A stretch of DNA of 64,000 nucleotides from Candidatus Rubneribacter avistercoris. GTDB taxonomy: Bacteria; Actinomycetota; Coriobacteriia; Coriobacteriales; Eggerthellaceae. Under the pieces are notes generated by a model. That model made no database searches, was not told the DNA's origin, and saw nothing but the letters and a program-made list of their open reading frames with translations. Below are positions 6,701-55,368 of the stretch, one piece after another (within the stretch, counting starts at the first letter, position 1; the number at the start of each line of letters is the position of its first letter). The position numbers were made by a program, and so were the translations under genes. The stretch is from the NCBI GenBank assembly GCA_019115845.1, contig DXCU01000010.1:1-64000 (forward strand), in the 5' to 3' direction.

Positions 6701-9700
6701 TTGTGCGTTTCGTACTGCCGGTACAGCACGAACTCGACATCCGGGTAGTGGTCACCCGCCGCGCGCCCGTCGAGCAGCTTCTTCACCGTCAGCTTGCCCT
6801 TGTCGGCGTCGTAGACGTTGTTGATGAAGAACGAGCCGGTGTTGCCGTGGCGGATGGTGAAGACCTTGTTGCTGTTGTTGCTGTCGTCGTCTTCGCTCCC
6901 ATCCTGCGAGTACTGCGAGAAGTCCACATCCCCCACTTCGTCCACGTCGATGTAGCCCGGCGTGCCCAGCAGCCCGACCATCACCTCGCGGGCGCGGTAC
7001 TCGTAGAGGTTGCCGTTCTCGTCGTACAGGGGCAGCGCGTCGCCGGTCGAATCCTCGGCGGTGTTGTCGCCCGTATGCTCGATGCGATAGGAGTACTGGT
7101 TGTTCCCGGCAGGCGTCAGCTGGGACATCCACGCTACGGCCCCGTTGCCAACGGGCACGAGCGAATCGCCCTCCCACTTCACGCGCAGCGCGGGCCACGA
7201 CGCTTCATCGCTCGCCAGCTTCTGCTGCAAAAACACCGTGATCTTCGGCAAGTCGTCCGCCGGGAACGACCCGGGCAGGTTGGTCCACAGCTTCGTGCCG
7301 TTGGCAACCACGTTGCCTGAAAGCGCATTGACGAACGTGCCGCCGGAGCGCAGGGCGTAATCGGTGCCCGCCGCCGTGTCGATGTCGGCGACGGCCTCGC
7401 CCGTCTTCACCTTGATGACGGCGGGGTCGCTGTCCTCCACGACCCCCATGCGGTCATCGGCGAACGTTACGTCGCCGTAGCCCAGGCTGGCGCCGTCGTT
7501 CATGAACTCTTCCACCGCGTAGTAGGTTATCTTGTCGCCCTGGCCGTCGTATTTGGGCAGCCCGCTGATGGTGCAGGTTTGCGAGTAATGCGAAGCCGCC
7601 TGCGAGGACGGAGTCCCGGCAGCCGCGATGTCGCCGTCCGGGCCCTCGCCTGCCTCCCGGTTCTCATCCGCCTCCCAGAGGTAGTGGATGTAGCCTTCAA
7701 CCGCCTTCGGCTTGTTGCCGGTTTCGGCGCTCACCTGGTACAGCGTGAGCGCGATGTCGGGACGCTGCTGCAGGTCCTCGTTCACGTAGACGTCCTTCCA
7801 CTCCTTGTGGAAGGTGGCGCTGGTGGAGCCCACGCGCTTGTTGGTCACCGTGTAAGTCTGCGTGTCGTGGAAGTGGCGGCCCCCCACCTTGTACTCGCCA
7901 ACCGAGACGGAGCTTGCGTAATCGCCGGAGGCGCCAACGAAGCGCTCCTTAACGGTGTAGTGCACCACCTCGCCGTCGGATTCGATGCCCTTGTACTTGG
8001 GCAGCCCGAAGAAGCCGTAGGTGGATTCCTTCTGCGCAGGGTCGATGTTGATCACGAGCGCTTTGCCGTCGTCCTCGACGGTTGCCACAAGCGGTTTGTT
8101 CGCATCGTCGTACAGCGGGATGTTGTTGCCGCCGTCCAGCTTCGCGTACGCCTGGCCGTCAGCATCGACGGAGAACACCGCCTTCGGATCGTCTACCGTC
8201 AGCTCAAGCCGCGCTTTCGGACGCTCGCCCTCGGAAGCGTCGCCGTCCAACCACTTCTTCTCCACCGTGAGGTCCACCAAGCCCAGCCGGCGGTTGTTCA
8301 CCGTGAACGTCTGCTTGCCGAAGGGACCGTTCTGGTCGGGGTGGTACGTGACCTCGTACACGTGGTTGTCGGTGGCAACGCGCTCACGATCGGGGTTGGT
8401 CCACCCTTCGTTGACCCAGCCCTCGTTCCCAAGCTCTGCGCTCTCGGCCTCGGTTTTGAGGTACACGGGGTATTTGGTCTGGCCGTCGAGGGATTCCAGG
8501 CGCGTCTCCTCCACGACGATGTCAGCCGTGGTCAGGCCATTCACCGGAACGGTGAACTCCAGGAACCAGCCGTTGGCCTCGGAAAGCGCCAGACCCTCGA
8601 AGATGACATCGCCCTCCTGGTACTTGAGCGTTCCATCGATTGTCGAGTACAGGTCGTGCTTCGCGCGCACGTCGATGAAGCAGGCCAGGCGGTGGGCCGA
8701 GTCCTCGCCGTCCGTCCAGTCCTTCATGAGGTGGAAATCGGTGCCCTCGCCGGGCCCGTAGCTGTTGGTGATGGTGGTGAGGTGCTGCTCGGCATTGTAA
8801 CTGCGCTGGCTGTCCCAACCGGCGGGCTCCACCTCCACCACGCGGTACAGGTAGCGCGCGCCCGTCTCCGAGTACAGCGGAAGCCCCGTGATCTCAAGAT
8901 AATAGGGGTCCGTCTCCTGCGCGCTCGGCACGGCGTCGCCGGGATCGCCCTCCAAGCTGTCATAGAAGCCGCTTGCCTTGTCGTCTGCCTGGCCGTCCAG
9001 CATGAACTCGCCCACCAGCGTGGTGCCCTGGTACACGCGCATGGTCACCTCGTCCTCGCGCGCCGGGTCGGGCTGCGAGGGAAGCCACTGGTCATCGTTG
9101 GGCGCGGGCTGCTGCCACAGTTTCTGCACGTTCTCGTAGGTGGTGTTGTCGAACGAGTTGACGATGGCGCCGGTGCCGGGATCAACCTGCGACGTGAACT
9201 CCACCTGCACGGGTTCGTCGCCGGACCCTTCGAGCGACTCCAGGCTCAGCGTGAACGTGGCGGTGCCGTCGCTGTTGCGCGTGAAGTTCGTTTCGGCGCC
9301 GTTTTGCGTGACGTTCGTCTCGACCCAGCGATACTCCAGCTCGTAGCCGTCCTCGTCGTATTTGGGATACGACCCCGTTATCTCCTGCGTGAGCATTTCG
9401 GCATTGAAGCCGCTCAGGTTTTGCGTGACGGGGGCGCCTTGGGAGTCCTTCGCGTCCGTCCACTCGCCGTTCGTCCCTACGCGGCGCTGCTGCAGCGTGA
9501 ACGTGCAGGTCACGTCTTCCAGCTGGTTTTGGAACGCCGCCACCGACCACGTCTTGACCTGCGAAACCGGCTTGGTGCCCGTCAGATGGTTCTCCACGGT
9601 GCCGCCGTTGTAGGTGAGGCGATCGGTGTCGGGGCGCGTCCACAGGGCGCCCACCGCCGCGCTGGGGTCGCGGTTCTGGTCGGTGTAGAAAACCTGCGTC

Positions 9701-12041
9701 TTCCCATCCGCGTCGTAGTAATTGGGCGCGGTGTCGTCGAGCAGCATCTCATAGTCCGGCAGGGTCGTGTCCTCGCGCATGCCGTACACGAAGGGGTAGC
9801 CGTCCGAATCGTACTTGTCCAGTTCAAGGTTGGGGTATTGCTCCCTGAGCAGATCTCCGAGGTTCACGGTGCCGTCGTCGGCCGCATCGTCGGGATCGAC
9901 GGTGACGGTGATGAAGCTGCCGTCTGCCGCGCGCACCTGCGAGGCGTTGGCGATGCTGCCGGGCGTGGCGCCGTCCGAGTAGCGCCACAGCGAGAACGTC
10001 ACGTTGCCGCGCTTGCTCTGGTTGTCGCCGTCGCTCCATTGTTTTGTGGCGCCGAACGTGGTGGTGCCCACGTGCGTGAACACGATGGTTCCGCCCGGAT
10101 AGGCGTAATCCACCACCGTGCCGTGGTTGGCGGACGCCGAGTTGTCGTAGGTGGCTTGGTAGTAGTCGTCATCCTCGTCATAGCCCTGGTAGATCAGACG
10201 GTACTCGATAGGCCTGCCGTCCACCGTGTACTGGGGCAGATCGGCGAACAAGGCCACGGTGTTGGGGTCTTTGTCGAACTCCCAGTCCCAACCGAACGCG
10301 CCGCCGAAGCTCTCCTGCTTTTCGAGCGAAGCGGAGTCGGTGCTCTCCTGCATGAGGTCTTCAAGGGCGTATGCGCCCTTCACCTGGTTGTCCACCACCA
10401 CTTCAACGCGGATGAGGTTGTTTTCGTCCCCCAGGCCAACAAGGGATTCGTCACCCACCTTGCCCGTGATGGTGAACCGCACCTCCGTCAGAAGCTGGAG
10501 GTTCTGCGTGCCCTCCGGGGACGCGGGGTCGCGGCGGTAATTTTCGTAGTCGGTGGCGTCGGCAAGCGACCATTCCACCGTGTAGGAGGTTTTCGAAGAC
10601 TCGTAGACAGGCTCGCCCGTGCCCGGCTCGTACAGCAGGTTGCCATCATCGTCCCGCGCTTGCGACCAGGTGGTTTGTACCACCTCTGTAGGCAGGCCGG
10701 TCGCCATGGAGAGGTAGGTTCCCACAGCCGTTTGCTCCGTGGACACGGAGGGAGCGTCTGTCATACCAAGGTAGAGGCGCACGTTCTCGGCGGTGGCCGG
10801 GATGCCTTCCGCCGGCGTGCCGTCCGTCGCGCCGATGAGGCCGCCCTCCCCCACGGACGCGACAGCTCCCTTCTGGTCGCGGATCGTGAAAGTCAGGGTC
10901 GGTTTCATGTCTCCGGGCTGGGGGCGGCTTGCGTTGTTGTTGTCGGCCCAGTTGGTGGTGAGGGTCTTGCTCTCGGTTGCAGTGCCGGGAACCCGGGTGG
11001 GATCGGGCGCGGCGGCGCGGGAGGCGAGGGCGTTCGCCGGGGCCGCGGCGGCCGGGTCGTCTTCGGCTTCGTCGTCGGCTTCGCCACCGGCCTCGTCGCC
11101 GGCCTCAGGATCGCCCTCCGGCTCTCCCCACAAGGCCAAAAGCTCGGTCGCAGAGGGAATTTTCAGCTCAACCGTGCGCTGCTCGCCGTCCTCGGCGGTC
11201 TGCACGATCCATTCGATCAGAGAGCCTTCGTCGGTTGCCAGAGCCGCGTCCACCGCCACGTCAAGCGACAGATGCGCGGAGAGCGCCCCGTCCGCAGCAA
11301 GCTCCACGCGCAGCACGCCGTCCTTGACGGTTCCAAAGGCCGCCTCGGCTGCGGGGTCGTCCGCCGAGGCTTCGGGGTCGTCAGTCGAGGTCGCAGGGTC
11401 GCCAGCCGAGGTAGCGGAGTCGTCCGTCGTGGCTGCGAGATCATCAGTTGGGGTTGCGGAGCTGTCCGCCGAGGCTTCGGGGTCGTCCGCCGAAGTCGCG
11501 GGCACGGTGCCCTCGCCGCCTGCGTACGAGACGCCTTCGGGCAGCGCGACGGAAAACCAGTCGCCCGCAAGCACGGCGTCGTCTTCTTCGGTGGGAGCAA
11601 GCTCGAACGAGATGTCGAGCGAAGCGGGAATGGAAGTAGGAAGCCCGTCGTCGGGAGCGTCTGCGGGGCGCTGCGCCAAGACGGAGAGGGAGGCATCAAG
11701 GACGAGGTCGTCAAGGGAGGCCGACCAGTCCTTCGGGTCGCGCGGCTCGGGGTTCGCCGCGCCGTCGTCCGAGGGCGTTTCGCCTGTCGGGGCATCGCCA
11801 AATAGCCACCCCCCCTCTGCAAGCGAATCGCCGGACGACTCGGGGTCATTGGTCAGAGAATTAGCTGCCCCCCCCCGTTAGGGAAATCGGGGGTCTTGTC
11901 GCCGGAGGTTTCGGGGGTGTCGGAATCGGCATAGGCAGCCAAGGAAAGCGGCATCATCGTTGCCACCAACAAACCGGCCATCACAACGCTGAAAGCGCGC
12001 CGACCAAGCGCGCGTATGCGTGCGCACCTCGCCTTTCTCAT
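766..12041 (-). CDS. Giant Cna_B/SpaA-repeat surface adhesin, frameshifted at a poly-G tract
   Basis: The start is the ATG at 12041, with AGGGAGG six bases upstream; a signal peptide follows (basic start, hydrophobic core, cleavage near AAYA-DS). After about 55 codons the frame hits G9 (11868-11876) and stops in this sequence. With G10 the frame runs on to 766, giving 3758 residues. The long frame then shows an Asp/Ala/Thr repeat, many Cna_B-type domains (about residues 660-2430, each with a K..W start and ending in a ..N-type isopeptide strand), and SpaA-like prealbumin domains with GATF and APAGYE motifs, six in close tandem at about 3000-3700. It ends with a sorting signal (non-canonical LTSTGDG, hydrophobic segment, RRK tail). 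Probable wall-anchored adhesin or stalk. The frameshift looks like an OFF state of a phase-variable gene; sequencing error in the homopolymer is the alternative. Confidence 0.88.
3219..3465 (-). repeat. 51-bp in-frame tandem repeats inside the giant adhesin
   Basis: About four to five copies of a 51-bp (17-residue) unit coding for peptides such as NAATRSAGNSAETSMAS. The array is inserted in a SpaA-like domain between the strand ending DMAARGAG and the one starting LRVAGLAWGTYRF. The copies differ by several residues, so the array is old or under weak selection. Confidence 0.8.
11340..11510 (-). repeat. 24-bp-type Asp/Ala/Thr repeats near the adhesin N-terminus
   Basis: Imperfect units of about eight codons (TSADDPEA, SADSSATP, TDDLAATT, DDSATSAG and so on) form a linker about 60 to 120 residues after the poly-G tract. 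Length changes in whole units would keep the frame. Confidence 0.65.
11868..11876 (-). repeat. Poly-G tract (G9), predicted phase-variation switch
   Basis: Nine C on the plus strand, read as AAC-GGG-GGG-GGG-C in the gene. As sequenced, translation ends four codons later (QLIL then TGA). Ten G restores 3758 codons; eight G gives a stop two codons after the tract. The context matches the tract at 55323-55332. Confidence 0.8.
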
Positions 12042-12153
12042 AGAAACCTCCCTGCTCAACCGCCGCGCAAGACCGGCCTTGCGCGAGCCATCGCGGCTTT
12101 CGCCCCCTGTTTTGGCGATGCCGCCGTGTATCCGTCAGCATACATGCGCGTAC
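12042..12153 (-). promoter_or_regulatory. Predicted leader of the giant adhesin with an RBS-proximal hairpin
   Basis: A perfect 8-bp stem, CGCGCAAG (12064-12071) and CTTGCGCG (12078-12085) with a 6-base loop, sits about 10 bases upstream of the Shine-Dalgarno AGGGAGG (12047-12053). It could tune translation or transcript stability. No known riboswitch was recognised. Confidence 0.4.
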
Positions 12154-12253: not shown

Positions 12254-12263
12254 CCCCCCCCCC
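12254..12263. repeat. C10 homopolymer upstream of the giant adhesin promoter
   Basis: Ten C on the plus strand (ten G on the coding strand of the adhesin), about 100 bases upstream of the predicted -10. It is not in a gene. Slippage here would change upstream spacing only. Confidence 0.6.
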
Positions 12264-12317: not shown

Positions 12318-12492
12318 AAAAATTTTTTCAGTTGGTCAAAATCCGGGCAAATCGGGGGTTTTAGGCGGCCTCCAGCCGCCTTTTTGTGCACCTGAAAAAC
12401 TCCGACCTGGGATTTCTCTCCGAAAAGGAAGGACCTGCTTCCGCCAAACCCCCGATTCGCCCGGATTTTGACCAAATGAGGGAATTTTCCGT
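12318..12492. repeat. Palindromic module, arm type D, copy 2
   Basis: Arms GGTCAAAATCCGGGCAAATC (from 12334) and its inverse (ending 12473), extended outward by AT-rich AAATTTT-like flanks. Inside are a small GGCGGC..GCCGCC hairpin (12364-12380) and the core at 12403-12418 (CGACCTGGGATTTCTC exactly). Confidence 0.8.
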
Positions 12493-17368: not shown

Positions 17369-20300
17369 TCACCTTCCCTTGCGACGCACGACGAGCGCGC
17401 AAACGCCCGCCGCCACCGCGCAAACCGCAAGCAGCACCACCGCGATCGCAAGCGGATCGCCCGTCGGCAGGGGGACCTGCGCCGGGGCGGCGGCCTTCTC
17501 CTCGCCCGACGTCGCGGGCGCGCCCTCCCCCGCCGGCGCCGAACCGGACCCGGGGTTAGACCCAGGGCTGGAGCCGGAATCGGGGGTCGCCGCGGCATCC
17601 GACCCAGAGCCGGAGCCGGGCGCGGAACCGGGGGGCGTCGCGGGATTGGAGTCCGGATCCTGCCCGACGTTCGGCGCCTCGGCAACCCGCACCGCAACCG
17701 TGCCGGAGACAGGCTCGTAGTTGGCGGAGTCCCGGGGAACGAACGTCCACATCGCCTCGTGCTCGCCTGCCGCAAGCACGAGCGAGGGGTCGCTCCACGC
17801 AAGCGAACCCGGAACCGGATCGCCCGAAGCATCGTTCGAAAACGCCCCCGACAGCCCGACGGCGGACAGCGGAGAGCCGGCCGCCACCTCCCCGATCACG
17901 GAAACCGAACCCGTCACCGCAGGCACCGCCTTCACAACCTCGCCGACGGCGGACACCGGCGGCGCGTCCGCCGCAATCACGTAGTTCGACGCCGCGTCGC
18001 TGCCGAGCAGCTGCACGGACACGTTCGTCGCGCGCTTGCCCGCGCCCGCGTTCGCGTCGGCGTACACCCCCGCCCCCTGCACGTCCGTGCCCACGACCAG
18101 CCGCTCGCCGGGCACAAGGTTGTCGAACACGGCCTCGGCCACCGGGGCGTCAAGCGAGCCGTCGTAAGCGCGCGGGGCGATGGAGGCCGAAACAAGGACG
18201 ATCTCCCGCGGCGCTATCCCCGAGGGGACCGTCCCGCGCACCTCGACGCCCGAACGGGCCGCGGCGGGCAACGCGTAGTTGTGGGCCCGGGCACCGAAGA
18301 GGGAAACCCCGGAGGCCACCACGGCGTTCTCGTACGCGTTCTTCCCGGCGAACGCGTACGCCGCAGCCGTTGCCTCCACCTGGCCGGCGTCGGAGGCGAG
18401 CACCCCGCCCGTCAGCGCCAGCCCCAGCGTGTGGCTCGCCGGAACGGCCGTTGTGCCGTCGTAGGCCTTGGCGGCGTCGCCCGTCAGGGCCACCTCAACC
18501 GAACGCCGGGCGACCGAGAGCGGCACCGTTCCCGAAACGGGCTGGTAGGTGGCCGAATCGTCAGGCGCGAACGTCCAGGAGGGGGCGGCGTCGCCCGCAT
18601 CGGGGACCGCGCCCGGGTCGTCCCACGAAAGCGTGCCTGCAACCTCCCGCCCCGTCTGCGGATCGACGAACGTCGCCGAAAGGGCCGACTCGGAGACGGC
18701 CTGCCCGTACGTTATGGGCGTTGCGGCCACGCCCGACGCGACGGGCTGGGCGCGGTTGGCGCTCGACACGTTCAGAACCGCCGTCACAGGTTCGAAGTTG
18801 CCCGACTCGTACACCGCGGTCACCGTGCCCACCGGCCCCTCGGCAGACGATTCGACAGGCTGGATGGGCAGGGTCAGCACCGAACCCTCCAAGCGCGCGG
18901 GGCCGGCGCCCTCATCGTAGTAGCCGCCCGACACGTTTACGGAGCTGAGCGTCCAACCCTTCGCATCGCCCCATGTCAGACCGTCCCCAAGCGCGGGAAG
19001 CAGCGTGGCGAAGTCGAACGTCGCCACCGAGGGGACGCCGTTTTTGACGACGAGCGAGGCGGACGCGGCCGCAGGCGGGGCCACGCGCTCAACAACAACC
19101 CGCGCCTCAACTTGCCGCTGCTCGTAGCGGATGTGCGGGGCGGCCGTTACGTCGGTCCATGCGGCAAGCGTTATCCGCACATCGTAGGCGCCGGCGTCCG
19201 TTGGCAGGCCATCCCGCCACCCGTCCGTCGCGCCGGCGGCGCGGTGTTGGTAGGACAGCTGGTCGGCCGTGGCGGGAACGGCGCCGTACGCAGCCTGCGC
19301 CACCACGTCGGCCTGTTGGAGGGCCGCGCCGTCGTAGGGCACGGAGGCGCCGGCCACTGCGGAAAGCGTCGCGACGCCCTCCACGACCTCGGGCTTGGCC
19401 GGGGCGATGACCACGCTGCGGGAGATCTTCGGATCGGCGGGCACCCGGTACCACGACGCCCGGTCGCCCTCCACGCGCTCCAAGGTCACCTGGAAGGTTC
19501 CGGCGGTCTGGCGGGAGGCGTTGTCGCTCAGCACAAACGCCAAGCCCTTGTCGGGCACCTTCGACCCCTCGGCGACGGAGGCGCTCACGTGCACGCCGTC
19601 GTTCTCGCGGCGGTCGTCCATGCCGCTCCACGCAACGTCGCCATCCGCAAGCGTGTACGGGTTCGCCGTCAGGCGGGCGGTGGCCCGGCCCTCGACATGG
19701 TTGCCCCCGTCCGCCACCGCGGTGACGGTGATCTGGTTCTCCCCCGGCTCAAGCGCGTCAACCGCGTCCTCAAGGGCGAACACGGCGCTCAGCTCCTCTT
19801 GGGCAAGGCTCAAAACCCCCAGCTCCCCGCGAGGACCCGCTATGCTCACCTGCGCCGGCGAGTCCGCCGACGCGCCGGCTATCCGCGCCGTCACGGTGAA
19901 ATGGTCGTCGGCCACGTAGGTGACGCTCGGCTGCTCGACGCCGGCCTCGCCCACCTGCCACGGAACCGGCGTGATGGAGCCCCGCGCGTCAACGTGGCCG
20001 CTGGCGGCAAGCCGGTAGAACCCGGCGTTCTCTCCCGACAGCGACACATCCGAGGCCACGATGGGCACGTCGGTCCCCGCGTCCGCCGACGCGTACGCGT
20101 ACGACCCCACAATCACCTGCGGCGCCAAGCCGCCCACCACCTGATCGGCGGGAACGGCCGCCGTGATGGCATCTGGCATGGTCACTGCGGTCGTGCCGTC
20201 GTAGGGTTTCGTCACGCCCGAGGCCGCATGCTCCACCGTCACCTCCTTCTTCGCAAGCCGCACCTCGCACGCAACGTCATGGGAACCCGACGCGTCGGCG

Positions 20301-23300
20301 AAGCGCACCGCAAGCGGCGTGGCGTCGTCGGCGCCGTACCGGTCGGCGGGGATGTCGGCGTTATCGAGCACGACGGGGACGGAAAACGAGCCGTCGCCGC
20401 CCACCTCGCCCGTCGCCAGCACCACAGAATCCCACAGCACGCTCACGCCCTGCGAACCCGCGGCCGCCTCCGCGCTCACGCTCCCTTTGACGGTGACGAC
20501 GTCGCCGAACGTGAACTCGGTCTGCGCAACGTCCCCCGCGTACGTGGTCGCCTGCAGGTTCACCTCGGGCGCGGCGCCTTCCTCCACCTCCACCTGCGTT
20601 GCCGGGCTCACCGCCTCAAGGTAGCCGCCGTTGCCGGCGTACTTCTGCTTCACCCAGTACGCGGTGTTCGCCGCAAGGCCCGTGATGACCGGGCTTTCCT
20701 GCCACGTGTACTGCCCGTTCTCCTCCGTGCTCCAGCCGTAGCGCACGCCACCGCGCCCCTGCGCCGGGTCCAGCTCCTCAAGGGTGACCGATCCCGCGCC
20801 GACGCTTTCCACCACAGGCGCCTCGGGCGCCTTCTGCGACACGCGCGCCGGCTGCCCCACGCTGGCCACCATGTCGCCGACCGCCTTCGCTATCTGGCCG
20901 CCGTCGTACACCACGCCGATCTCCGTGCCGTCGCGCCGCGCACCGTCGGCCACCACGGGCGCGGCCTCGATGAACGCGTTGCCGGGGCGAATCTTGAACG
21001 AGCGGCTCTCGCCGGGTTTCAGCACCTTGTCGGCCTCGGTCGCGTCAACGAACTCGAACAGCGCGTAGGGGTCCCCGCCCGTGCTGGGATAGAGCGCAAG
21101 CCCCTCGAGCGCAGCCTCCTTCTTGCCCGTGTTCGCAAGCTCAACCGTCAAAAACTCCGGCGTGAAGCCTATGCCGAACGCGCCGTTCGGCTCGAACATC
21201 AGCAGGCCGTCCTCGCCTCCCGAAATGGAGAAGCCGGGCTGCTCAACCTGCGACTCCTCCACCTCCACAACGGTGGCCGACGACGCGAACGCGTTGCCCG
21301 GGCCGCCTTCGTAGTCGCGCATGACGTGGGCCTGGGCGTCCCAATGCCGGCGCTGCGGGTTGTAGTCCGCCTTGTAGCGGACCTCGTAGGTTCCCGCAGG
21401 CACCTCCACGCTGCCGTCCGCGTAGACGTCCTGCCATACGCCCGTTCCGTCGTCGGTTTTCGGACGGTACTGCATCGCGGTGGTGACGCCGGTGATCTTG
21501 CCGTCGCCGCGGCCGCTTGCGCTGGGCTGCTGGCTGCCCAGGCCCTGGGGCCCCTGGGGGCGGGTGGGCACGGTCACCGCCGTGGCGGCCGAGGGGAACG
21601 CCGAGGCGTTGTCAGCCACGCGCAGGTACACCACGTGCGGCTCTTCGCCGTACTCGCCGATGAACGGGGAAACGGACGCGCCGTTCGCTATCTTTTGCCC
21701 GGTGAAGTCCTCCTTGGTGTTCGCCTCGTGTATTTCCACGCCGTTTTCCATGTAGACGGTCACCGTCTCGGCGGCGTAGTCGATCTCGAAATCCCACTCG
21801 GGTGGCGCCGAGGGAACGGGGTACTCGTACTCGCCGTCCTCGGTCAGCTTGCCCCATTGCAGATCGACGTTGTACACGCCGTCGAGCCTTTGCGACACGT
21901 AATTGGGGTCCTCGATATGGGCCGTCACGCTGTAGGAGCCCGCGCTCAAACCGCGAATGGTGGGATAGGGCTTGGAGGAGTCGGCGATGATCCACCCGTC
22001 CGACCCTCCTTCGCCGGCGTCCGGCCGCGCGATGCGCTCGCCGATGGGCAGGTACGCGGAGCCGTCGTAGAGCACGGTGGCCCGCACGGTTTCGCCTTCC
22101 ACGTTTTGGTACACGGCCTCCAAAGGCCCGTTGTAGCCCTGGTCGTAGACGGTGGTCTGCACGCCCCCTTCCGGGTAGTCGGGGTTGGACGCTTGCGCGA
22201 CGGAGGCGCGGTAGGCGGCCTCGTTGTGGTCGTAGGTGTTCCAGAACCCGCCGAACCGGTCTTCTTCCCACACCAGGTCGCCGTCGGCGTAGATGGATGT
22301 GGTGTCGGTGGCGGACTGCTCGGACCCCACGCGCCAGAAGGGCTTCTCCGACTCTTTGAGCCGCGTGGTGACCACCACCTGCTTGGGGTGCACCACAAGC
22401 TCCAGCGCGGTGGAGAGGCTTGCGATCTGCCCGTTCGTCTCGTACGTCACGGTCACGGTCGCTTGGTAGGCGCCGGCGTCGATGGACCCTTTGGGGACGA
22501 TGCTCCACGACTCGTCCGCATCACCCGGGGCGATGGCGGCAACGCCTCCCCTCACCTCGAAGACCTCCGGCAGGTTGGTGGACACGGACACGTTGGCGGC
22601 CTGGGACAACCCCACGTTGTCGATGCGGACGCTTTGGCCCAGGCGCCCCATGTCGTCGCCGTACGTGGCGTCAAGGGCCGCCAGGCCGCCCAGCTGGAGC
22701 GCCGCGCCCCCCTGCCCGTCGGTCACCTTGAGCGCGACGTCGGAGGTGCGGCTGGCAACCGCGGTGGCCCTTGCGTCCTCATCCGCCTTCTCGGCGAACA
22801 CCTTCAGCGTGTAGTCGCCCCACTGCATGTCCTGGGGGATGGTCAGGGCGTAGGTTCCGTCCTCGGCTTTGTCGGCAAGGGGGCCGTAGGCCATCACGGC
22901 GCCCGCCGAGTTCACGAGCATGGCCGAGATGCGGTTGTAGCCCCTTGCGGGGTCGACGCCCGTCACCTGGACGGACAGCTGCGATCCGGGAGAGGCGGCG
23001 TCCAGCCCCCCAGCCACAAAGGCCCGAAGCGCCGCGTCGTCGTTGAGCACGGCCACGCCCCACTCGTTGCCGGAGGAGAGGGCGGTGCCCGAAAGGGACT
23101 CCGCGCGGGAGGCGCCGGCGTCAATGAAGTACAGCACGCCGTCCCATCCCAGGTTCAGCGCGGGCGCGACGCCGATGCCCTCGTATCCGCCGGCGGCGCT
23201 TTTGGCGAGCGCATCCAAGCCGAGCGTGCCCGCGCCTTCGGCCAGGGGAACGTCCAAGCCGAGCGCGCCTGCGCCTTCGGCCAGGGGGGCGGCCTCCCTG

Positions 23301-24220
23301 TTGGAGTACACCGCGCCCTCGGAATCCACGGCTGCGGGGCGGATTTGGTCGTACATGCCCTCGGATCCGCTCAAATCCAGGTAGGAGCGCGTCCAATAGG
23401 AGCCGTACGCGTTCGTGGACGTGCTCACCGTCGCGCCCTGCGACTGCGCGTAGGGGGTGGCGGTGAGCTGCACGGAGGACTGGACGTAGGAGGTATCGGG
23501 GAAGGGCGCGAAACCGTAGTCCGCGCGCAGAAGCTCCGCCCCCGAAAGGATGAACGCCGTGTCGTCGGCAAGGGGCATGTCCACAAGCAGGCCCACGTTG
23601 CCCCTCGCCGGCCACGTGGTGCGCTTGACGGCGGCCTGCTCGTCGGGCGTGAAGGCGGTGTTCCAGAAACCGCCCGCGGTGTAGGAGTCGTACTGCTGGT
23701 CGAAGCTTTCCGAGCGCATCCATTTGCGCAGGTTGGACTCGTTCCACTTCTCGTCGAAGTGGTTGATCTGCTCCTTCCAGAGCACCTGGTCCACAATGTA
23801 GGCCGTCTGCAGAAGGAAGCTGTCGGACGCGGCGTTGCCGCTGGCCGACTCCTTGTCAAGCAGGCGCCACCGCAGCGGATCCTTCTGCTCGGCGGAGTCT
23901 ATGAAGTAGCGGCCGAAGTAGACGTAGCTGCCGTTGCCGCCGTTCGCCCAGGTGGCCGATGGCGAAGCGGTGGGCTGCGCCGGGTTGCGGACGCCCGAGA
24001 CGAACCCGTCGGGCTGCACGAGGTTCACCGTGCGCGCCGTGTTGTCCCACGCGCTTGCGCCGCCCTCCTCAAGCGGCGCCGATTCCCCTTCGCTCGCCCG
24101 CGCCGCTTGCGGCAGCGCCGGGAGCATGGACAATGCGAGCACCGCCGCCAGCAAAAGCGACAGGAGCGCGCCTTTCGGCCGAGCCTCCCCCGACCGAGAC
24201 AAAGCTGTACGCCTCATCAT
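17369..24220 (-). CDS. Large wall-anchored YDG/MBG-repeat surface protein
   Basis: 2283 residues from the ATG at 24220, chosen because GAGAGG lies six bases upstream; two nearby in-frame ATGs are alternatives. The signal peptide ends near ARASEG. Residues about 60-400 resemble a DUF6273-like domain (YVYFGRYFID, LRKWMRSESF, FILSGAELL, YWTRSYLDL). The long remainder is beta-rich, with repeated AYDGTTAV-type YDG motifs. The C-terminus is a PVPLPTGD-like sorting signal: sequence VPLPTGD, hydrophobic helix, RRKGR. It also has Gly/Ser/Pro repeats before the anchor and a short repeat (LAEGAG..GLD twice, 23217-23290). Probable surface-exposed adhesin or matrix protein. It follows the transglutaminase-like gene in the same direction, 154 bp away. 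Confidence 0.85.
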   Translation of the reverse strand: MMRRTALSRSGEARPKGALLSLLLAAVLALSMLPALPQAARASEGESAPLEEGGASAWDNTARTVNLVQPDGFVSGVRNPAQPTASPSATWANGGNGSYVYFGRYFIDSAEQKDPLRWRLLDKESASGNAASDSFLLQTAYIVDQVLWKEQINHFDEKWNESNLRKWMRSESFDQQYDSYTAGGFWNTAFTPDEQAAVKRTTWPARGNVGLLVDMPLADDTAFILSGAELLRADYGFAPFPDTSYVQSSVQLTATPYAQSQGATVSTSTNAYGSYWTRSYLDLSGSEGMYDQIRPAAVDSEGAVYSNREAAPLAEGAGALGLDVPLAEGAGTLGLDALAKSAAGGYEGIGVAPALNLGWDGVLYFIDAGASRAESLSGTALSSGNEWGVAVLNDDAALRAFVAGGLDAASPGSQLSVQVTGVDPARGYNRISAMLVNSAGAVMAYGPLADKAEDGTYALTIPQDMQWGDYTLKVFAEKADEDARATAVASRTSDVALKVTDGQGGAALQLGGLAALDATYGDDMGRLGQSVRIDNVGLSQAANVSVSTNLPEVFEVRGGVAAIAPGDADESWSIVPKGSIDAGAYQATVTVTYETNGQIASLSTALELVVHPKQVVVTTRLKESEKPFWRVGSEQSATDTTSIYADGDLVWEEDRFGGFWNTYDHNEAAYRASVAQASNPDYPEGGVQTTVYDQGYNGPLEAVYQNVEGETVRATVLYDGSAYLPIGERIARPDAGEGGSDGWIIADSSKPYPTIRGLSAGSYSVTAHIEDPNYVSQRLDGVYNVDLQWGKLTEDGEYEYPVPSAPPEWDFEIDYAAETVTVYMENGVEIHEANTKEDFTGQKIANGASVSPFIGEYGEEPHVVYLRVADNASAFPSAATAVTVPTRPQGPQGLGSQQPSASGRGDGKITGVTTAMQYRPKTDDGTGVWQDVYADGSVEVPAGTYEVRYKADYNPQRRHWDAQAHVMRDYEGGPGNAFASSATVVEVEESQVEQPGFSISGGEDGLLMFEPNGAFGIGFTPEFLTVELANTGKKEAALEGLALYPSTGGDPYALFEFVDATEADKVLKPGESRSFKIRPGNAFIEAAPVVADGARRDGTEIGVVYDGGQIAKAVGDMVASVGQPARVSQKAPEAPVVESVGAGSVTLEELDPAQGRGGVRYGWSTEENGQYTWQESPVITGLAANTAYWVKQKYAGNGGYLEAVSPATQVEVEEGAAPEVNLQATTYAGDVAQTEFTFGDVVTVKGSVSAEAAAGSQGVSVLWDSVVLATGEVGGDGSFSVPVVLDNADIPADRYGADDATPLAVRFADASGSHDVACEVRLAKKEVTVEHAASGVTKPYDGTTAVTMPDAITAAVPADQVVGGLAPQVIVGSYAYASADAGTDVPIVASDVSLSGENAGFYRLAASGHVDARGSITPVPWQVGEAGVEQPSVTYVADDHFTVTARIAGASADSPAQVSIAGPRGELGVLSLAQEELSAVFALEDAVDALEPGENQITVTAVADGGNHVEGRATARLTANPYTLADGDVAWSGMDDRRENDGVHVSASVAEGSKVPDKGLAFVLSDNASRQTAGTFQVTLERVEGDRASWYRVPADPKISRSVVIAPAKPEVVEGVATLSAVAGASVPYDGAALQQADVVAQAAYGAVPATADQLSYQHRAAGATDGWRDGLPTDAGAYDVRITLAAWTDVTAAPHIRYEQRQVEARVVVERVAPPAAASASLVVKNGVPSVATFDFATLLPALGDGLTWGDAKGWTLSSVNVSGGYYDEGAGPARLEGSVLTLPIQPVESSAEGPVGTVTAVYESGNFEPVTAVLNVSSANRAQPVASGVAATPITYGQAVSESALSATFVDPQTGREVAGTLSWDDPGAVPDAGDAAPSWTFAPDDSATYQPVSGTVPLSVARRSVEVALTGDAAKAYDGTTAVPASHTLGLALTGGVLASDAGQVEATAAAYAFAGKNAYENAVVASGVSLFGARAHNYALPAAARSGVEVRGTVPSGIAPREIVLVSASIAPRAYDGSLDAPVAEAVFDNLVPGERLVVGTDVQGAGVYADANAGAGKRATNVSVQLLGSDAASNYVIAADAPPVSAVGEVVKAVPAVTGSVSVIGEVAAGSPLSAVGLSGAFSNDASGDPVPGSLAWSDPSLVLAAGEHEAMWTFVPRDSANYEPVSGTVAVRVAEAPNVGQDPDSNPATPPGSAPGSGSGSDAAATPDSGSSPGSNPGSGSAPAGEGAPATSGEEKAAAPAQVPLPTGDPLAIAVVLLAVCAVAAGVCALVVRRKGR

Positions 24221-24277
24221 GAACATCCTCTCAACCTCGAAACACACGCTGCACGCGCCTTCCTGCTGCGCCGCCTA

Positions 24278-24374: not shown

Positions 24375-27300
24375 TCACGCCCCGCTTCCAGAAGACGGCG
24401 CCGCCGGGTAGGACGGATCGTCGGCGAAGGAGGACACCGCAAGGTCCGCCCATGCGCCGTGGTTGTTGCCGGACCCTTGGCACAGCATGGTCAGACGCGC
24501 CTGGACGGCCTGGTCGGGCACCGCAACCGACACTTTTTCCGCCTCGTGCTTCCAACCGTGGGCCCCGGTTTGGAAGGCGTCGCCTATGAGCCGGCCCTGC
24601 GCGTCCAGGAACTCAACCCGGAAGGCCACCTTGCAGTAGTGGCCCCACTTGAGGTTCTGGCGCACCGATCCCAGCACGCCCGCCGTGGCGGACAGCACGC
24701 GCCGCTCGCCCGCGGGCAGGTCCACGACCTTCGGGTTGTTGCTGCGCTCCATTTGGACGACGCCTTGCGAGTAGGCCGTCTCCTTCCCGTCTTGCAGCAG
24801 GGTGAACGAGGCTTTGCCAACCTCCAGCGCCACGCTGCCCTCGGCGATGGCGGCGCGCGTTTCAAAGGACCCGGACGCAAGCTCGTAGTTCGCGGCCTTG
24901 GCCGAATCCGCAAGCGCCACCGTCACGACGGCGACGCGCGAGCCGGACGCCCCGGCGCCGTCGAAGGAGGCGCTGGCCTCGTAGTCGGCGCCCGCCTCAA
25001 GCGCCTCGCCCGCAACCAGGCCCTCAAACGACACCGACTCCACCCGCGCCTCGGTCGTGCCGTCGTAGGCTTTGTCGGCCACCTGGGCGGAGGAGATGGA
25101 AAGCGGGGCCTTGGCAACGGAGGCCGGCACGGACACGGAGGGCGGCGCGCTGTACCACTGGGCGTCGGCGCCCGCAAGCGTCACGCCCTCCACCAGCACC
25201 GCGGACGCCCGCGCCGCCTCGGCATGGTCGTAGGCGGCGGATGCGAACTCCACGCGCACATCGTCGTCGGCAACGGCGCCCGACGCCACCACGGACGAGC
25301 CCTGGGGAAGCGCCGTCGTGCCGTCGTAGGCCTTGGAGGGGCCCTCCACCGTCACCGCCGCATCGCGCTTCCCAAGCTCCACCCGAACCTCGGAGGAGAC
25401 AGAGCCCGTTGCGTTGGCGTTGCCCCTGAACTGCACGGTCAGGGAGTTCGACCCCACGGCCAGGCCCTTTTCCGCCGTGTCGTAGACGAACTGGGCGGGC
25501 GCGCCGGGTCGCGCCTCCAGCTCGCCCAGGTGCGTGCGGCCGGCCCACACATGCACCGTTTCGGACTCGGCCAGCGCGGCCTCGGACTCGGAGGAGAGCG
25601 TCACCGTGACAACCAGGTCCTCCCCGTACGCGACGTGCTCCGCAGCACTTGCCTCGACGCTGGTCGAGGCGTAGGAGATGGTCGCCTGAGTGCGGACGGA
25701 GGCGTTTTCAAGCTGGTAGTTCTCCGCAGCGGCGTCCGTCAGCTCAACCGAAACGGCCACGCCCTTTTCGGACAGGGACGCGGACGGATCGTCGAAGGCG
25801 CCGACAACCTGGTAGTGGGTGCCCGCCTCCAAGGATTCGCCGGCCACCACGCCCTCGAACGCAACGGATTCAACGCGCGCATCCGCGGTGCCGTCGTAGA
25901 CCTTGTCCGCCACCTGGGCGGAAACGACGGAGAGCGGGACCTTGGCAATGGAGAACTCAACCGGCTGGGAAACGGCCCCCGCATACACCAGGCCCTCGGC
26001 CAGATGGGCCGTCACGCGGTACTCGCCGGCGGCCGAGGGGGCGGCGCCCAGCGCCTCCCAGCCCTCCCCGGACCTGCGCTCCCACGAAAACGTGACGGCC
26101 CCGGTGCTGCCCGAGGCGCGAACCGCAGGCTCGGCGACGGGGCTGCCATTGTACGCCAGTCCCTCCAGGTTCTCCGTTATCTCGATTTCGCTGGGCAGCT
26201 TGTCGGCCACGGAAGCCACCTCAAGGTTGGCCCATGCGCCGTGGTTGTTGCCGGACCCCTGGCACAGCATGGTCAGACGCGCCTGGACGGCCTGGTCGGG
26301 GACGGCCAGCTCGATGTCTTCCGCCTCGTGCTTCCAGCCGTGCGTCTGGGTTTGGAAGGCGTCGCCTATGAGCCGGCCCTGCGCGTCCAGGAACTCAACC
26401 CGGAAGGCCACCTTGCAGTAGTGGCCCCACTTGACGTTTTGGCGCACCGACCCCAGCACGCCCGCCGTGGCGGACAGCACGCGCCGCTCGCCCGTCGGCA
26501 GGTCCACGACCCGGGGGTTTCCGAAGGCCTCCTTCTGCACGAAGCCGCGGTCGTAGGCCGTCTCGGCCCCGTCGCGCAGCAGGGTGAACGACGCCTCGTC
26601 GGCCTCCAGCGCCACGCTGCCGTAGGAGATGGCGGCTTGGGCCGCAAAGGGACCGGGCGCAAGCTCGTAGTTCGACGCCTTGGCCGAGTCCGTCAGCGCC
26701 AACTCCACGGAGACGTCGCGCGACGGGGAGGCCCCGGCGCCGTCGAAGGAGGCGCTGGCCTCGTAGTCGGTGCCCGCCTCAAGCGTCTCGCCCGCAACCA
26801 GGCCCTCAAACGACACCGACTCCACCCGCGCCTCGGTCGTGCCGTCGTAAGCCTTGTCGGCCACCTGGACGGAGGGCACAGAGAGCGGAGCCTTGGCTAT
26901 TTGGAACTCCACGGATCCCGACGCCGCCGCATGCACGGCGTCAGCCGCAACCGAGGCCGTCACGCGGTACTCGCCGGCGGCCGAGGGGGCGGCATCGAGC
27001 GCCTCCCAGCCCGCCCCGGACCTGCGCTCCCACGTAAACGAGACGGCCCCGGTGCTGCCCGAGACGAGGATGGCGGACTCGGGAGCGGGGCTGCCGTTGT
27101 AGACCAGATCGCTCAAACCGCCCGCAACGCCCACCGCGCTTGGGAGCAGGCGGTCAAGCTCAACCACCCTGACCCCGGCCCACGCGCCGTGGTTGTTGCC
27201 GGACCCCTGGCGCAGCATGGTCAGACGCGCCTTGGCGGCCTGATCGGGAACGGCCAGCTCGATGTCTTCCGCCTCGTGCTTCCAGCCGTGCGTCTGGGTT

Positions 27301-28892: not shown

Positions 28893-29174
28893 GTCGCCTT
28901 CCCGCTTTCTCGTTTTTCCAACCGTGAGCACCATAGGGGCCAAAACCTCGCTTTCTCCATATGCCGACATTCCGTCGAAGCCGCGTGCCGCGCCGTCAGA
29001 CCGCTCGCAAACCTTGCGGCCCAACGCTGCGATCAGGCGCCTCGACAGAAGCCGATGCTTAGTAGCACGTAATTTGTCTCATTTTGATGCAAGGGAGGGC
29101 GAAAAACCTCTACAGCAGCTTCGTTTTCGAAGGGGGATAGGGCCGCACGCGAGGAATTCGCAGGAGACTCTCCG
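28893..29174. other. Upstream region of the transglutaminase-like gene
   Basis: No gene is seen. The stretch 29050-29110 is AT-richer than its surroundings and is the most likely promoter area, but I could not assign clear -35 and -10 boxes. Confidence 0.4.
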
Positions 29175-39867: not shown

Positions 39868-40923
39868 CTACAATCCAAAGAACTCCACCACCTGCCCGTC
39901 AAACCACGAATACCCGGCATCGAAGAACGGCAGGAAGCCAGCTCGCATGGACAGCCCTCCAGCCGCCCACAGGCAAACGGCAAGCACGGCAAGGCACGCA
40001 GCGAACCCTACCGCTCGGACCCACGCCCTTCCGGCCCTGGTCGTCCCCACCCTGCGGCGCCCGGCTCGCGCCAAAGCGACAAGCCCCACGCAGCACAACA
40101 ATGCGAGCAGGCCCAGCCACACAAGCACGCTCTCCGGAACGCCACGCGGAGGCGGAGCCGGCTCGGCAGAGGGATGCCCCGTCACCAGCAGCCGGTGCGA
40201 GTTGATTCCGTAAGGGGTGCAGGTAAGCAGCGTAAAACGTTGTTCGCCTCGCACCGACTGCAGCAAAGAGGTGTCGTGAGGGTCCACCACGTTCACGGAG
40301 TCCACGCGATACGTCAGCGTCCGTCCCAAAACGTGCACAGAGAACGCGTCGCCCGGCCGTACGCAGGACAAGTTCGTGAACAGCAGCTTGTCGGGTATGC
40401 CCGTATGGCCGGTCAGCACCGGATGGGTGCTGTCTCCGCCTACAGGCAAAGCCGTGGTGGCAATGTGACCTGCGCCCTCTTCCAGCACGTCGTCCGATGT
40501 GCCATGGTAGATGGGCAGCATCAAGCCGATGCCGGGAACCTCCACGTAGCCCATCATGCCGGTCCCGGCCGGATCGAGCGTCTCCCAATAGCGATCGAGC
40601 GGCGGGAGCACTGCCCGATAGCTCCATGGATCATCCACGTTCTGACCCGCCAACTCGTTGTTGTACGCCTGCGCTTCCTCCCAAAGACCGTCCAGCTCTT
40701 CCTGACTTAACGCCGCCAGCGACTTATCGTAAGATGACACGGCACTGTGAGCCATCACCTGGTACAGCGCGTTTCCCAACACGGGGTACAGCGCAAGGCA
40801 CAGGCCCGCCGCCATCGCCAACGCACACGCAACGTTGCAGGCACGCCGAGCGAATGACGACAGGCAAGGCGCCTCGCGGCGGACGCGGTTTATTCCGAAG
40901 ATGAATCGTCGCTTCGCCAGCAT
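39868..40923 (-). CDS. Class C (pilin) sortase
   Basis: 351 residues from the ATG at 40923, two bases after the adhesin stop codon. An N-terminal membrane segment (about 28-55) is followed by a sortase domain with His173 (LTGHTG), Cys235 in TLLTCTPYG and Arg244 in NSHRLLVTGH. A C-terminal pair of membrane segments (about 265-320) follows; two anchors are typical of class C enzymes that polymerise pilins. It is encoded directly after the three pilin-like genes and would join them and hand the fibre to the wall. The upstream in-frame ATG at 40953 is possible but lies inside the previous gene. Confidence 0.93.
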   Translation of the reverse strand: MLAKRRFIFGINRVRREAPCLSSFARRACNVACALAMAAGLCLALYPVLGNALYQVMAHSAVSSYDKSLAALSQEELDGLWEEAQAYNNELAGQNVDDPWSYRAVLPPLDRYWETLDPAGTGMMGYVEVPGIGLMLPIYHGTSDDVLEEGAGHIATTALPVGGDSTHPVLTGHTGIPDKLLFTNLSCVRPGDAFSVHVLGRTLTYRVDSVNVVDPHDTSLLQSVRGEQRFTLLTCTPYGINSHRLLVTGHPSAEPAPPPRGVPESVLVWLGLLALLCCVGLVALARAGRRRVGTTRAGRAWVRAVGFAACLAVLAVCLWAAGGLSMRAGFLPFFDAGYSWFDGQVVEFFGL

Positions 40924-40925
40924 AA

Positions 40926-45621: not shown

Positions 45622-45639
45622 AGAACCGTCCTCACACAC

Positions 45640-45674
45640 CCCCTCCCCGCCTTGGGATGCACGACGGGGAGGGG
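45640..45674 (-). terminator. Hairpin between major and minor pilin genes
   Basis: CCCCTCCCCG (45640-45649) pairs perfectly with CGGGGAGGGG (45665-45674) around 15 bases. It lies between the major-pilin stop codon and the minor-pilin start. With no U-run it may be an attenuator or 3'-end stabiliser that makes the major subunit more abundant. Confidence 0.5.
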
Positions 45675-45703
45675 ATCCTCGCGAAAAAAGCGGAAGATGC
45701 GAC

Positions 45704-47617: not shown

Positions 47618-47687
47618 CTCCAATCCTTTCTTCCAACTCTCGACCCGATACGGCCTTGAATCAGTATTGGAGTTTGACCACGATCTG

Positions 47688-48835: not shown

Positions 48836-48844
48836 CCCCCCCCC
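48836..48844. repeat. C9 homopolymer upstream of the LysR-type gene
   Basis: Nine C in the 293-bp gap between rsgA and the LysR-type gene, about 68 bp upstream of the candidate -35. It is outside genes. The rest of the gap holds only the rsgA-end hairpin. Confidence 0.6.
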
Positions 48845-52566: not shown

Positions 52567-55368
52567 CTATCGGCAGGCGCGCCCGCTTCGACGCAGCCAG
52601 ACGGCGCAGCCCAGGCCCAGCACCAGCACCCCGGCCGCGCCGGCGGCATCGACTCCTGCGGCACCTGTGCGCGCCAACAGCACCGGCGCCGGCTCCTCCA
52701 CCCGGTTCTCGAACGCGGCGGGGGCGTCCGCGCCGTCGTAGGACACCTCGGCCGAGAGGGAGCCGTCGGCGCGGGCGACCACCGTGACGGTCGCCGCGCG
52801 CTCGGAGGTGTCGTAGACCACGCCGTCCTTGGCGAAGCCGCCCGCGGCCAGCTGGTCGGCGGTGGCCTGGTCGTAGCGCACGCCGTCGGCGTTGCAGGCG
52901 TCGCCGGGCACCTGCTCGCGCACGGTGTAGGCGTAAGTGCCCGCCTGCGCGTAGCTCAAAACGCCGAAGTCCACGGGCGCGGCGCCCTCCTCGGAGGCGT
53001 CCGCCGCGCCGTTGCTCGCCTTTGCGACGACGGCGCCCGCGGCGTCCAGCAGCTCGAAGGTGAACTGCCCCTCGGACAGCTCGCCGCCCTCGAAGCGCTT
53101 GGACGCCTCGATCCGCGCCTCGCCCGACGCGGCGTACTTGTTGGAGAAGCTCGCCTGCGCCCGCTTTCCGGCCTCGACGGCGCCCGTCGCGCCCTCAAAG
53201 CCCGTCAGCGTCCAGCCGGCAGGCACGTCGACCTCGGCCACCTCGTAAGCGCATCCGTCGTCCAGGCCCTCAACGACCGCGGTCTGGCCGCCCTTGAGCA
53301 CAACGACGCCGTTCGCGGCGGTCCGCTGCTCGGCGCCCACCGTGTAGGGGCCGCTGTAAGGCTTGCCGTCCACCGTCAGCTCGAAGCGGAACTCCTGCTC
53401 GCCCGACGGCCCGCCGGCCATCGCGCCGGAAACGACCTTGGAGATTGCCAGCGAGCCGGGACCGGCCTCCCACTGCGCGTACAGGTTGACCTCGGCCGGC
53501 AGCAGCCCCGAGAGGTAGTCCTGCGCGAACGTGGCCCGGTCGGCGTAAGATGTGCCGGAGCCGTCGGGCTCGGTGTTCCAGCCCAGGAAGGAGTGGCCCT
53601 CCCACGTGAAGCCCAGGGCGTCCAGGACGGCGTCGCCGTCCTCCCAGTCGACCGTCTGCACCGGCATGGCGCCGCCCGCGGCGCCGTTGGCGTGGAAGAC
53701 GAAGTCCACGAGCGTGTCCCACACGTAGGTGCCCGCGGGCGCCGCCGCGCCGGGGTAGGCCTCCGCGAAGCCGCCGGGCTGGTGCGACGTGCCCTTCTGC
53801 TGCTCGCCGCCCTCCAGCCGTATCCACGCCTGCTTGACCGTGGCCGGCGTGGGGAGCGTCGTGAGCACCTGGCCGGTCGTCTGGGCGTAGGCGCCCTTGA
53901 AGGAGAAGTCGTCCCCCAGCGTGATCATCCGCAGCGCCGGCATCTGACGGAACATGTTCGACATGTCCGTGGCGCTCGAGGTGTCGAAGGTGCCGATGTC
54001 AAGCGACGGCAGCGAGGAGCAGCGATCGAACATGTCCTTCATGCTGGTGACCTTCGCCGTGTCGAAGTTCGACACGTCAAGAGACGTCAGGCCCGAGCAT
54101 CCGGCGAACATGCCGCCCATGTTCGTGACGTTCGCCGTGTTGAAGGTTGACAGGTCAAGGTCCGTCAGGGAGCTGCACTCGGAGAACATGCAGTACATCG
54201 TGGTGACGCTTGAGGTGTCGAACATCGACACGTCAAGGTTTTGCAGCTTCGGGCAGTTGTGGAACATGCTCGTCATGTTCACGACCTTCGACGTGTCGAA
54301 GCTCGACAGGTCGATGGACTCCAAAGACGTGCAGTTGTAGAACACGTAGGCCATGTTCGTGGCGTTCGAGGTGTCGAACGTCGTCACGTCGATGGTGGTG
54401 AGGGACTTGCAGCCGCTGAACATGCTGGACATGTTGGAGATGTTCGCCGTGCTGAAGTGCGAGAGGTCCAAAGAGCCAAGGGACTCGCACTGCTCGAACA
54501 TGCCGGACGCGTTCCACACCCGCTCGGAGTCGAACGACGTTATGTTCAAGGAGGTGAGGGCCTTGCAGCCGGCGAACATCTTGTCCATGCGCGTGACGTT
54601 CTCGGTGTTGAAGAACGACAGGTCAAGGGACGTGAGGGAAGAGCAGCCGTTGAACAGGTAGCCCATGTTCGCTATGTTCGTGGTGTCGAAATTCGGCCCG
54701 AACGTGATGGAGTCCGAAGTCAGGCTGGAGCAGCCGGAGAGCAGCTTCGATATGTCCGTGACGTTGCCGAGCGAGAGGTTGGTGAAATCGACGCTGGTCA
54801 TGTTGCTGTGCGTCGAGAACATCGTGGAGATGGACACCGCGGCCGTCGTGCCCGGGGCGAAAGACGCGCTCTTCACGTCGCTCGCGAAGGCGGCCCAGGG
54901 GGAGTTGCACTCCTTGTCGCCTGCAATCGACACTCCCGTGCCGCTGATCAGGAGGTGGCCGGCGTCGTCAAGCTCCCATTTCCAGGTGCCCATGTCGCCG
55001 CTTTGCACCACGGCCCTGGCGGAAGCGGCGGCAGGCGCGCTGCCTGCGGCGGGCGTCAGGAGCGCCGAGGGCGCTGCGGGATTCTCGTCGGTCGCGTCCG
55101 CTGCGTTCGCCGCGTCAGCTGCGGCGGGCGCGTCGGTTGCGGCGGGCGCGTCGGCTGCGGCGGGCGCGTCGGCCGTATCCGCCGCATTCGCCGCATTCGC
55201 CGCGTCGGCCGCGTTCGCTGCGTTCGCGGCGTCCTCCTGCGCCAAAGCGACGAAGACTTGCGTCGGGAGCAGCGCGGTCGAAATGAGCAGCGCCGTGAAC
55301 AGCGCTAATGCTCGTTTATACGCCCCCCCCCCGTTTCGTTTTCGCATCACGGACCTCAGTGCCTCCAT
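52567..55368 (-). CDS. BspA-like leucine-rich surface protein, phase-variable
   Basis: 933 residues from the ATG at 55368, with AAGGAGG upstream. A G10 tract codes residues NGGGA at 12-16, in frame here (ON), just before the signal peptide (to about residue 44). An Ala/Asp/Asn-rich repeat follows (about 45-105). About twelve DUF285/BspA-type repeats (about 175-470; pattern MFSGCKSLTTIDVTTFDTSN) and an InlB-like repeat (about 560-635, VDFVFHANGAAGG to YAQWEAG) follow. Then come two Spy0128-like pilin domains with a YAQAGTYAYTVRE E-box. The C-terminus is a non-canonical LARTGAAGV sorting signal, hydrophobic helix and RRSGR. Likely adhesin or host-binding protein, wall-anchored. Confidence 0.9.
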   Translation of the reverse strand: MEALRSVMRKRNGGGAYKRALALFTALLISTALLPTQVFVALAQEDAANAANAADAANAANAADTADAPAAADAPAATDAPAAADAANAADATDENPAAPSALLTPAAGSAPAAASARAVVQSGDMGTWKWELDDAGHLLISGTGVSIAGDKECNSPWAAFASDVKSASFAPGTTAAVSISTMFSTHSNMTSVDFTNLSLGNVTDISKLLSGCSSLTSDSITFGPNFDTTNIANMGYLFNGCSSLTSLDLSFFNTENVTRMDKMFAGCKALTSLNITSFDSERVWNASGMFEQCESLGSLDLSHFSTANISNMSSMFSGCKSLTTIDVTTFDTSNATNMAYVFYNCTSLESIDLSSFDTSKVVNMTSMFHNCPKLQNLDVSMFDTSSVTTMYCMFSECSSLTDLDLSTFNTANVTNMGGMFAGCSGLTSLDVSNFDTAKVTSMKDMFDRCSSLPSLDIGTFDTSSATDMSNMFRQMPALRMITLGDDFSFKGAYAQTTGQVLTTLPTPATVKQAWIRLEGGEQQKGTSHQPGGFAEAYPGAAAPAGTYVWDTLVDFVFHANGAAGGAMPVQTVDWEDGDAVLDALGFTWEGHSFLGWNTEPDGSGTSYADRATFAQDYLSGLLPAEVNLYAQWEAGPGSLAISKVVSGAMAGGPSGEQEFRFELTVDGKPYSGPYTVGAEQRTAANGVVVLKGGQTAVVEGLDDGCAYEVAEVDVPAGWTLTGFEGATGAVEAGKRAQASFSNKYAASGEARIEASKRFEGGELSEGQFTFELLDAAGAVVAKASNGAADASEEGAAPVDFGVLSYAQAGTYAYTVREQVPGDACNADGVRYDQATADQLAAGGFAKDGVVYDTSERAATVTVVARADGSLSAEVSYDGADAPAAFENRVEEPAPVLLARTGAAGVDAAGAAGVLVLGLGCAVWLRRSGRACR
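55085..55245 (-). repeat. Ala/Asp/Asn codon repeats in the BspA-like protein
   Basis: Units such as ANAADAANAANAAD and DAPAAADAPAATD from 9- and 18-bp repeats (for example GCGGCGGGCGCGTCGG) lie just after the signal peptide. They keep the frame when their number changes. Confidence 0.75.
55323..55332 (-). repeat. Poly-G tract (G10) near the BspA-like start codon
   Basis: Ten C on the plus strand read as AAC-GGG-GGG-GGG-GCG in the gene, keeping the frame. Nine or eleven G would stop the protein early. The codon context AAC-G(n)-GC matches the giant adhesin tract. Confidence 0.8.

Follow-up and report, generated by a model that had tools for sequence, protein, structure and literature searches.

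A run of nine G on the minus strand of the window (the whole stretch of 64,000 nucleotides analysed here) separates a short frame that encodes a signal peptide from a very long frame that encodes the body of a surface protein. The locus raises the question of whether this break is a reversible switch within one gene, a site of recoding, an error in the assembly, or damage to a gene that is no longer used. Our comparisons of sequences indicate that the run very probably switches a giant sortase-anchored surface protein ON and OFF by phase variation, as a contingency locus, and that the gene is OFF in this assembly. The features of the locus, together with those of a second candidate gene in the window, are listed in Table 1.

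Table 1 Positions of the putative switch tracts and associated features in the window
Feature	Position	Strand	Remark
Putative intragenic slippage tract, G9 homopolymer (C9 on the plus strand)	11868..11876	-	sequence
Upstream ORF with ATG and signal peptide, 62 codons, ending just past the tract; predicted OFF product	11853..12041	-
Ribosome-binding region GGGAGGTTTCT before the ATG	12042..12060	-	conserved with R. badeniensis
Downstream frame of the giant surface protein, 3,703 codons	766..11877	-	open to the stop at 766
G10 run that precedes the start codon by 212 nt; candidate for a second, transcriptional switch	12254..12263	-
G10 in the signal-peptide n-region of an LRR/DUF285/FctA protein, in frame (ON); second switch candidate of the window	55323..55332	-
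Surface protein gene with the 55323 tract, 933 aa, LRR/DUF285/FctA	52567..55368	-

The tract at 11868-11876 is exactly C9 on the plus strand and G9 on the minus strand, where the junction reads CCT AAC G9 CAG CTA ATT CTC TGA. The upstream ORF begins with an ATG at 12041, just downstream of a Shine-Dalgarno-like GGGAGG, and encodes a clear signal peptide (MRKARCARIRALGRRAFSVVMAGLLVATMMPLSLAAYA). It ends just after G9, as the earlier note had described, with a stop codon at 11853-11855 that lies seven codons on from where the tract begins, and at G9 its register indeed differs by one base from that of the giant frame. The same note held that the giant frame is otherwise intact for more than 10 kb, and we find it open from 11877 to 766 with no other lesion in 11 kb. 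The 3637 codons given in the note count from an internal TTG at 11679; the whole open frame has 3,703 codons. The two frames run together without a stop for only ~24 nt, and the tract itself makes up 9 of these. GC content by codon position is 0.55/0.56/0.71 in the signal-peptide frame before the tract and 0.72/0.57/0.75 in the body frame after it, and this register changes at the tract. Long ORFs on the opposite strand of the giant gene (e.g., 7579-11805 on the plus strand, 1408 codons) were taken as shadow ORFs of high-GC DNA. The window contains four G/C runs of at least 9 (at 11868, 12254, 48836, and 55323), compared with 0.4-0.6 expected under Markov models of order 2 to order 5 and 1.4 under an order-1 model.

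A Pfam search of the 3,703-codon frame finds seven stretches of SpaA (PF17802) and three of Cna_B (PF05738). The C-terminus of the protein contains LTSTGDG, a membrane segment, and a basic tail, RRK. Although the motif departs from the canonical LPXTG, this end is a predicted sortase signal because the membrane segment and RRK follow it and because homologues end with LEKTGDG (G001), LSKTGDG, and LPKTGDN (G018). The protein thus combines a signal peptide, SpaA and Cna_B domains, an LPXTG-like motif, a membrane segment, and a basic tail, and resembles isopeptide surface proteins and pilins of the SpaA/Cna_B class in its repeated domains and in both of its ends. It differs from such pilins in its match to the SpaH/EbpB major pilin model NF033902, which reaches only 48.8 bits against a cut-off of 95 bits, so that it is at most a candidate pilin. 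From the domain class and the sortase signal, we infer that the protein is an adhesin. No sortase gene adjoining the giant gene is seen, and the contig starts 765 nt beyond the end of the giant frame. Elsewhere in the window, a pilus cluster on the minus strand (39871-47785) comprises a sortase, a SpaA protein (1,322 codons), and an LPXTG pilin with GramPos_pilinD1, and a G9 tract lies ~1 kb upstream of it (48836-48844). Two further giant ORFs on the minus strand, of 2,292 aa (17372-24247) and 1,549 aa (24378-29024), carry YDG/MBG/Big domains, the latter also with a transglutaminase core, and each is faced by a shadow ORF of equal length on the plus strand.

The giant gene is present in 12 of 138 genomes of the family, including the window's own. 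A search of genome contigs for a same-species counterpart matched only Rubneribacter badeniensis (R. badeniensis), which belongs to the same genus as the gut bacterium of the window, a genus-wide search at the DNA level matched only the window's own genome, and viral contigs gave no match. The R. badeniensis orthologue (G001; L005/L010) has the same order of signal peptide, G10, and a 3,700-codon frame, which is also out of register; its N-terminal part is only 37% identical to that of the window. Two genomes of another genus, G041 and G042, contain G10 and G9, respectively, ~245 codons into the gene, and both are out of register there. The signal peptide of the window is homologous to those of all three genomes. 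It matches the start of the pre-tract frame of G041 (55%, E 5e-10), and window residues 28-130 after the tract match the same pre-tract frame (35%, E 4e-17), while the rest of the window body matches the post-tract frame of G041 (52% over 574); over ~570 aa, the bodies of G041 and G042 are 51-52% identical to that of the window. The signal peptide and N-terminal domain, which are split in the window, thus share one frame in G041 and G042. As the parts that are split in the window are joined in G041, and the reverse, the two frames belong to one gene in both lineages, and as the split sites differ within this gene, the lineages acquired or moved the tract independently. In the homologues of G018 and G068, the signal peptide is in one frame with the body, and there is no tract at that place.

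The four tracts, at two sites, have lengths of G9, G10, G10, and G9, and all four genes are OFF in their assemblies; among these homologues, no copy that is ON through the tract is seen. Within the first 900 coding nucleotides of the 12 homologues, four sense G tracts of at least 9 are observed, where no more than 0.17 would be expected (P 3e-5; 7e-4 with G041 and G042 taken as one). These expected numbers are based on each genome's own count, with the whole-genome average as the background rate. Beyond the tract, comparison of G041 with G042 gives a dN of 0.094, a dS of 0.35, and a dN/dS of 0.27 over 2,850 codons; this frame is under purifying selection in both genomes.

A break of this kind could also be bridged without any change of the DNA. 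RNA polymerase slippage can result from long homopolymers, and transcriptional slippage or ribosomal frameshifting on G9 might yield some full-length protein from the OFF allele, a process that could coexist with replication slippage. We consider recoding an unlikely explanation of the tract, as its position is not conserved between the lineages and lengths of 9 and 10 both occur. Moreover, no stimulatory RNA structure beyond the effect of composition is found: the fold z-score is +1.4, i.e., less stable than most shuffled sequences, and such a structure was rejected as a stimulator.

The tracts of the giant gene are part of a wider population. In 425,574 bases of the genome, G/C runs of length 5 to 11 number 658, 91, 7, 2, 24, 22, and 8. 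The sampled regions were chosen around runs of at least 9, so these are over-sampled ~7.5-fold compared with shorter runs; when the numbers are scaled to the genome, those from length 6 are ~688, 53, and 15, then 24, 22, and 8. The counts therefore drop to length 8 and rise to a second mode at 9-10, which persists after scaling. Most of the tracts are intergenic under a simple codon model. Sense tracts that read in frame (ON) are found in the LRR/DUF285/FctA gene of Table 1, in an M6-like secreted protease directly after its signal peptide (L042), in a secreted protein of more than 1,868 aa (L026), and in a TupA-like ATP-grasp glycosyl enzyme (L033). A membrane-anchored GDSL hydrolase has G10 after its membrane segment (L018:4117-4126) and is OFF in the window's genome, while its counterpart in a one-contig genome of another genus has G10 at the same place and is ON (G022; L092:1486-1495). 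Such a mix of ON and OFF states among sense-tract genes would be expected under phase variation. Several tracts elsewhere (L022, L028, L034, L040, and L063) also seemed to join frames, but these cases were attributed to noise from shadow ORFs and left aside. Slippage is favoured where MutS-type repair is lacking, and none of the three genomes of the genus contains MutS_V, which the control finds in 11 of 14; a marginal match to NucS over 38 positions was not taken as evidence. We also note that LuxR-, LysR-, and PucR-type regulator genes carry sense G10-G11 tracts inside the gene or at the 3' end (L041:10101, L044:4055, and L047:4030), where switching of regulators is possible. The end of contig C30 (L032:4035) and the start of C24 (L025:22) have nearly identical sequence with G11 and G10, and may be either a repeat or a single locus at which the reads had two tract lengths.

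The states of these tracts also bear on whether the break is a sequencing or assembly error in a homopolymer, so that the true tract is in frame and the gene constitutive. G tracts are difficult to sequence, and database entries can give a wrong length for them (PMC9187656); moreover, the genome is a draft of 104 contigs. Against this, four independent assemblies are broken at their own tracts in the giant gene, at two different sites, while the genome's other surface genes with a sense tract mostly read in frame through it. Even a mis-called length would leave a slippage-prone tract of 9-10 nt, and we regard an error as highly improbable. That the gene is instead a recently broken pseudogene, with a fixed frameshift that chances to fall in a homopolymer, would agree with the broken frame of all homologues that have a tract at one of the two sites but is scarcely credible given 11 kb without another lesion, a dN/dS of 0.27 past the tract in a comparison of two OFF genomes, and tract positions that are independent between lineages.

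We therefore return to phase variation by slipped-strand mispairing. The G9 lies inside the coding sequence and is of a length prone to slip (8-9 or more), and this length sets the register between the start and the body. The body is intact (3,703 codons, and dN/dS 0.27 in G041/G042), and relatives have the tract with differing lengths. In the proposed mechanism, slippage of DNA polymerase would change the length of the G tract. With some lengths, the signal-peptide codons would be in register with the SpaA/Cna_B body, giving a secreted, wall-anchored protein of ~3,760 residues; with others, as in this assembly, translation would stop seven codons on, with no export and at most a 62-residue peptide. 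Tract lengths presumably vary within the living population. The earlier note called the break recent or reversible, and its reversible nature gains support from the same break at G10 in R. badeniensis, the breaks at another site in two genomes, the intact and selected frame, and the tracts in both states elsewhere.

The G10 upstream of the gene is absent from the finding of the earlier note. R. badeniensis also has a G10, 209 nt upstream of the start, and the sequence in between is poorly conserved with the window. Overall, G/C tracts of at least 9 precede the start in 4 of 12 homologues (212 nt in the window, 209 nt in R. badeniensis, ~120 nt in G019, and ~28 nt in G032), compared with 0.15 expected; P is 2e-5 to 7e-3 with a one- to five-fold correction, applied because intergenic DNA is richer in such runs. 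No sigma-70 consensus is found near the upstream G10 in the window. In R. badeniensis, TTGATG-18-TAAAAT, read by eye, begins 7 nt past the upstream G10. From its position, we would guess that the upstream G10 also tunes transcription, which could add a transcriptional layer as for Helicobacter pylori sabA. It is worth noting that an interspersed repeat of ~45 nt (CCGGGCAAATCGGGGG-like, 84-86% alike) occurs in both orientations at 236-280, 12319-12368, and 12441-12488 of the window and at G000:C95:30-73, adjoining surface genes and a contig end.

A broader proposal, which we hold to be evenly balanced, is that Eggerthellaceae possess a contingency system of poly-G tracts across the genome, and that within it one giant adhesin gained its switch independently at different positions, with two tracts in some copies. 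Such a system would consist of dozens of tracts of 9-11 nt in a MutS-less genome, located before or inside surface, glycan-modifying, and some regulator genes, with the switch placed behind the signal peptide, within the N-terminal domain, or in the 5' region. Little is known of the genetics of Coriobacteriia, a class common in the gut. Our literature search found no paper that describes tract-driven phase variation in Eggerthellaceae, a negative that does not prove that none exists. In reference genomes, the protein appears broken in all four copies that have a tract at one of the two sites, and annotation would miss it. If the proposal is true, stochastic poly-G surface switching would be general among gut Actinobacteria rather than confined to Bifidobacterium and Gardnerella, and each cell could switch the giant surface protein, for which there is evidence that its gene evolved the switch more than once.

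This type of switch is already known from bifidobacterial pili, and its comparative signature is unusually clear here. The sabA gene of Helicobacter pylori resembles the locus in having repeat tracts in both the promoter region and the coding sequence of one adhesin gene; it differs in encoding a Gram-negative adhesin, and the upstream tract of the window is only a candidate promoter element (PMC2715451). Gardnerella has homopolymer contingency loci with measured length variation, and its genomes likewise contain G/C tracts of at least 8 throughout, mostly upstream of ORFs, many of them with sortase-signal surface proteins, but of protein families other than that of the window (PMC11287997). 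The closest known case is another gut actinobacterium, Bifidobacterium breve UCC2003, in which bbr_1889a/b and bbr_0113a/b are switches of sortase-dependent pili (PMC9187656). The layout of bbr_1889a/b is nearly the same: a 65-codon signal ORF, a G tract, and a 2,674-aa LPXTG-type frame out of register, with the reference OFF (PMC9187656). The locus of the window, known here from sequence alone, differs in its class (Coriobacteriia), in its different and larger protein, and in the additional upstream G10. For bbr_1889a/b, the in-frame form gives pili by experiment, and in-frame lengths are enriched in mice (PMC9187656).
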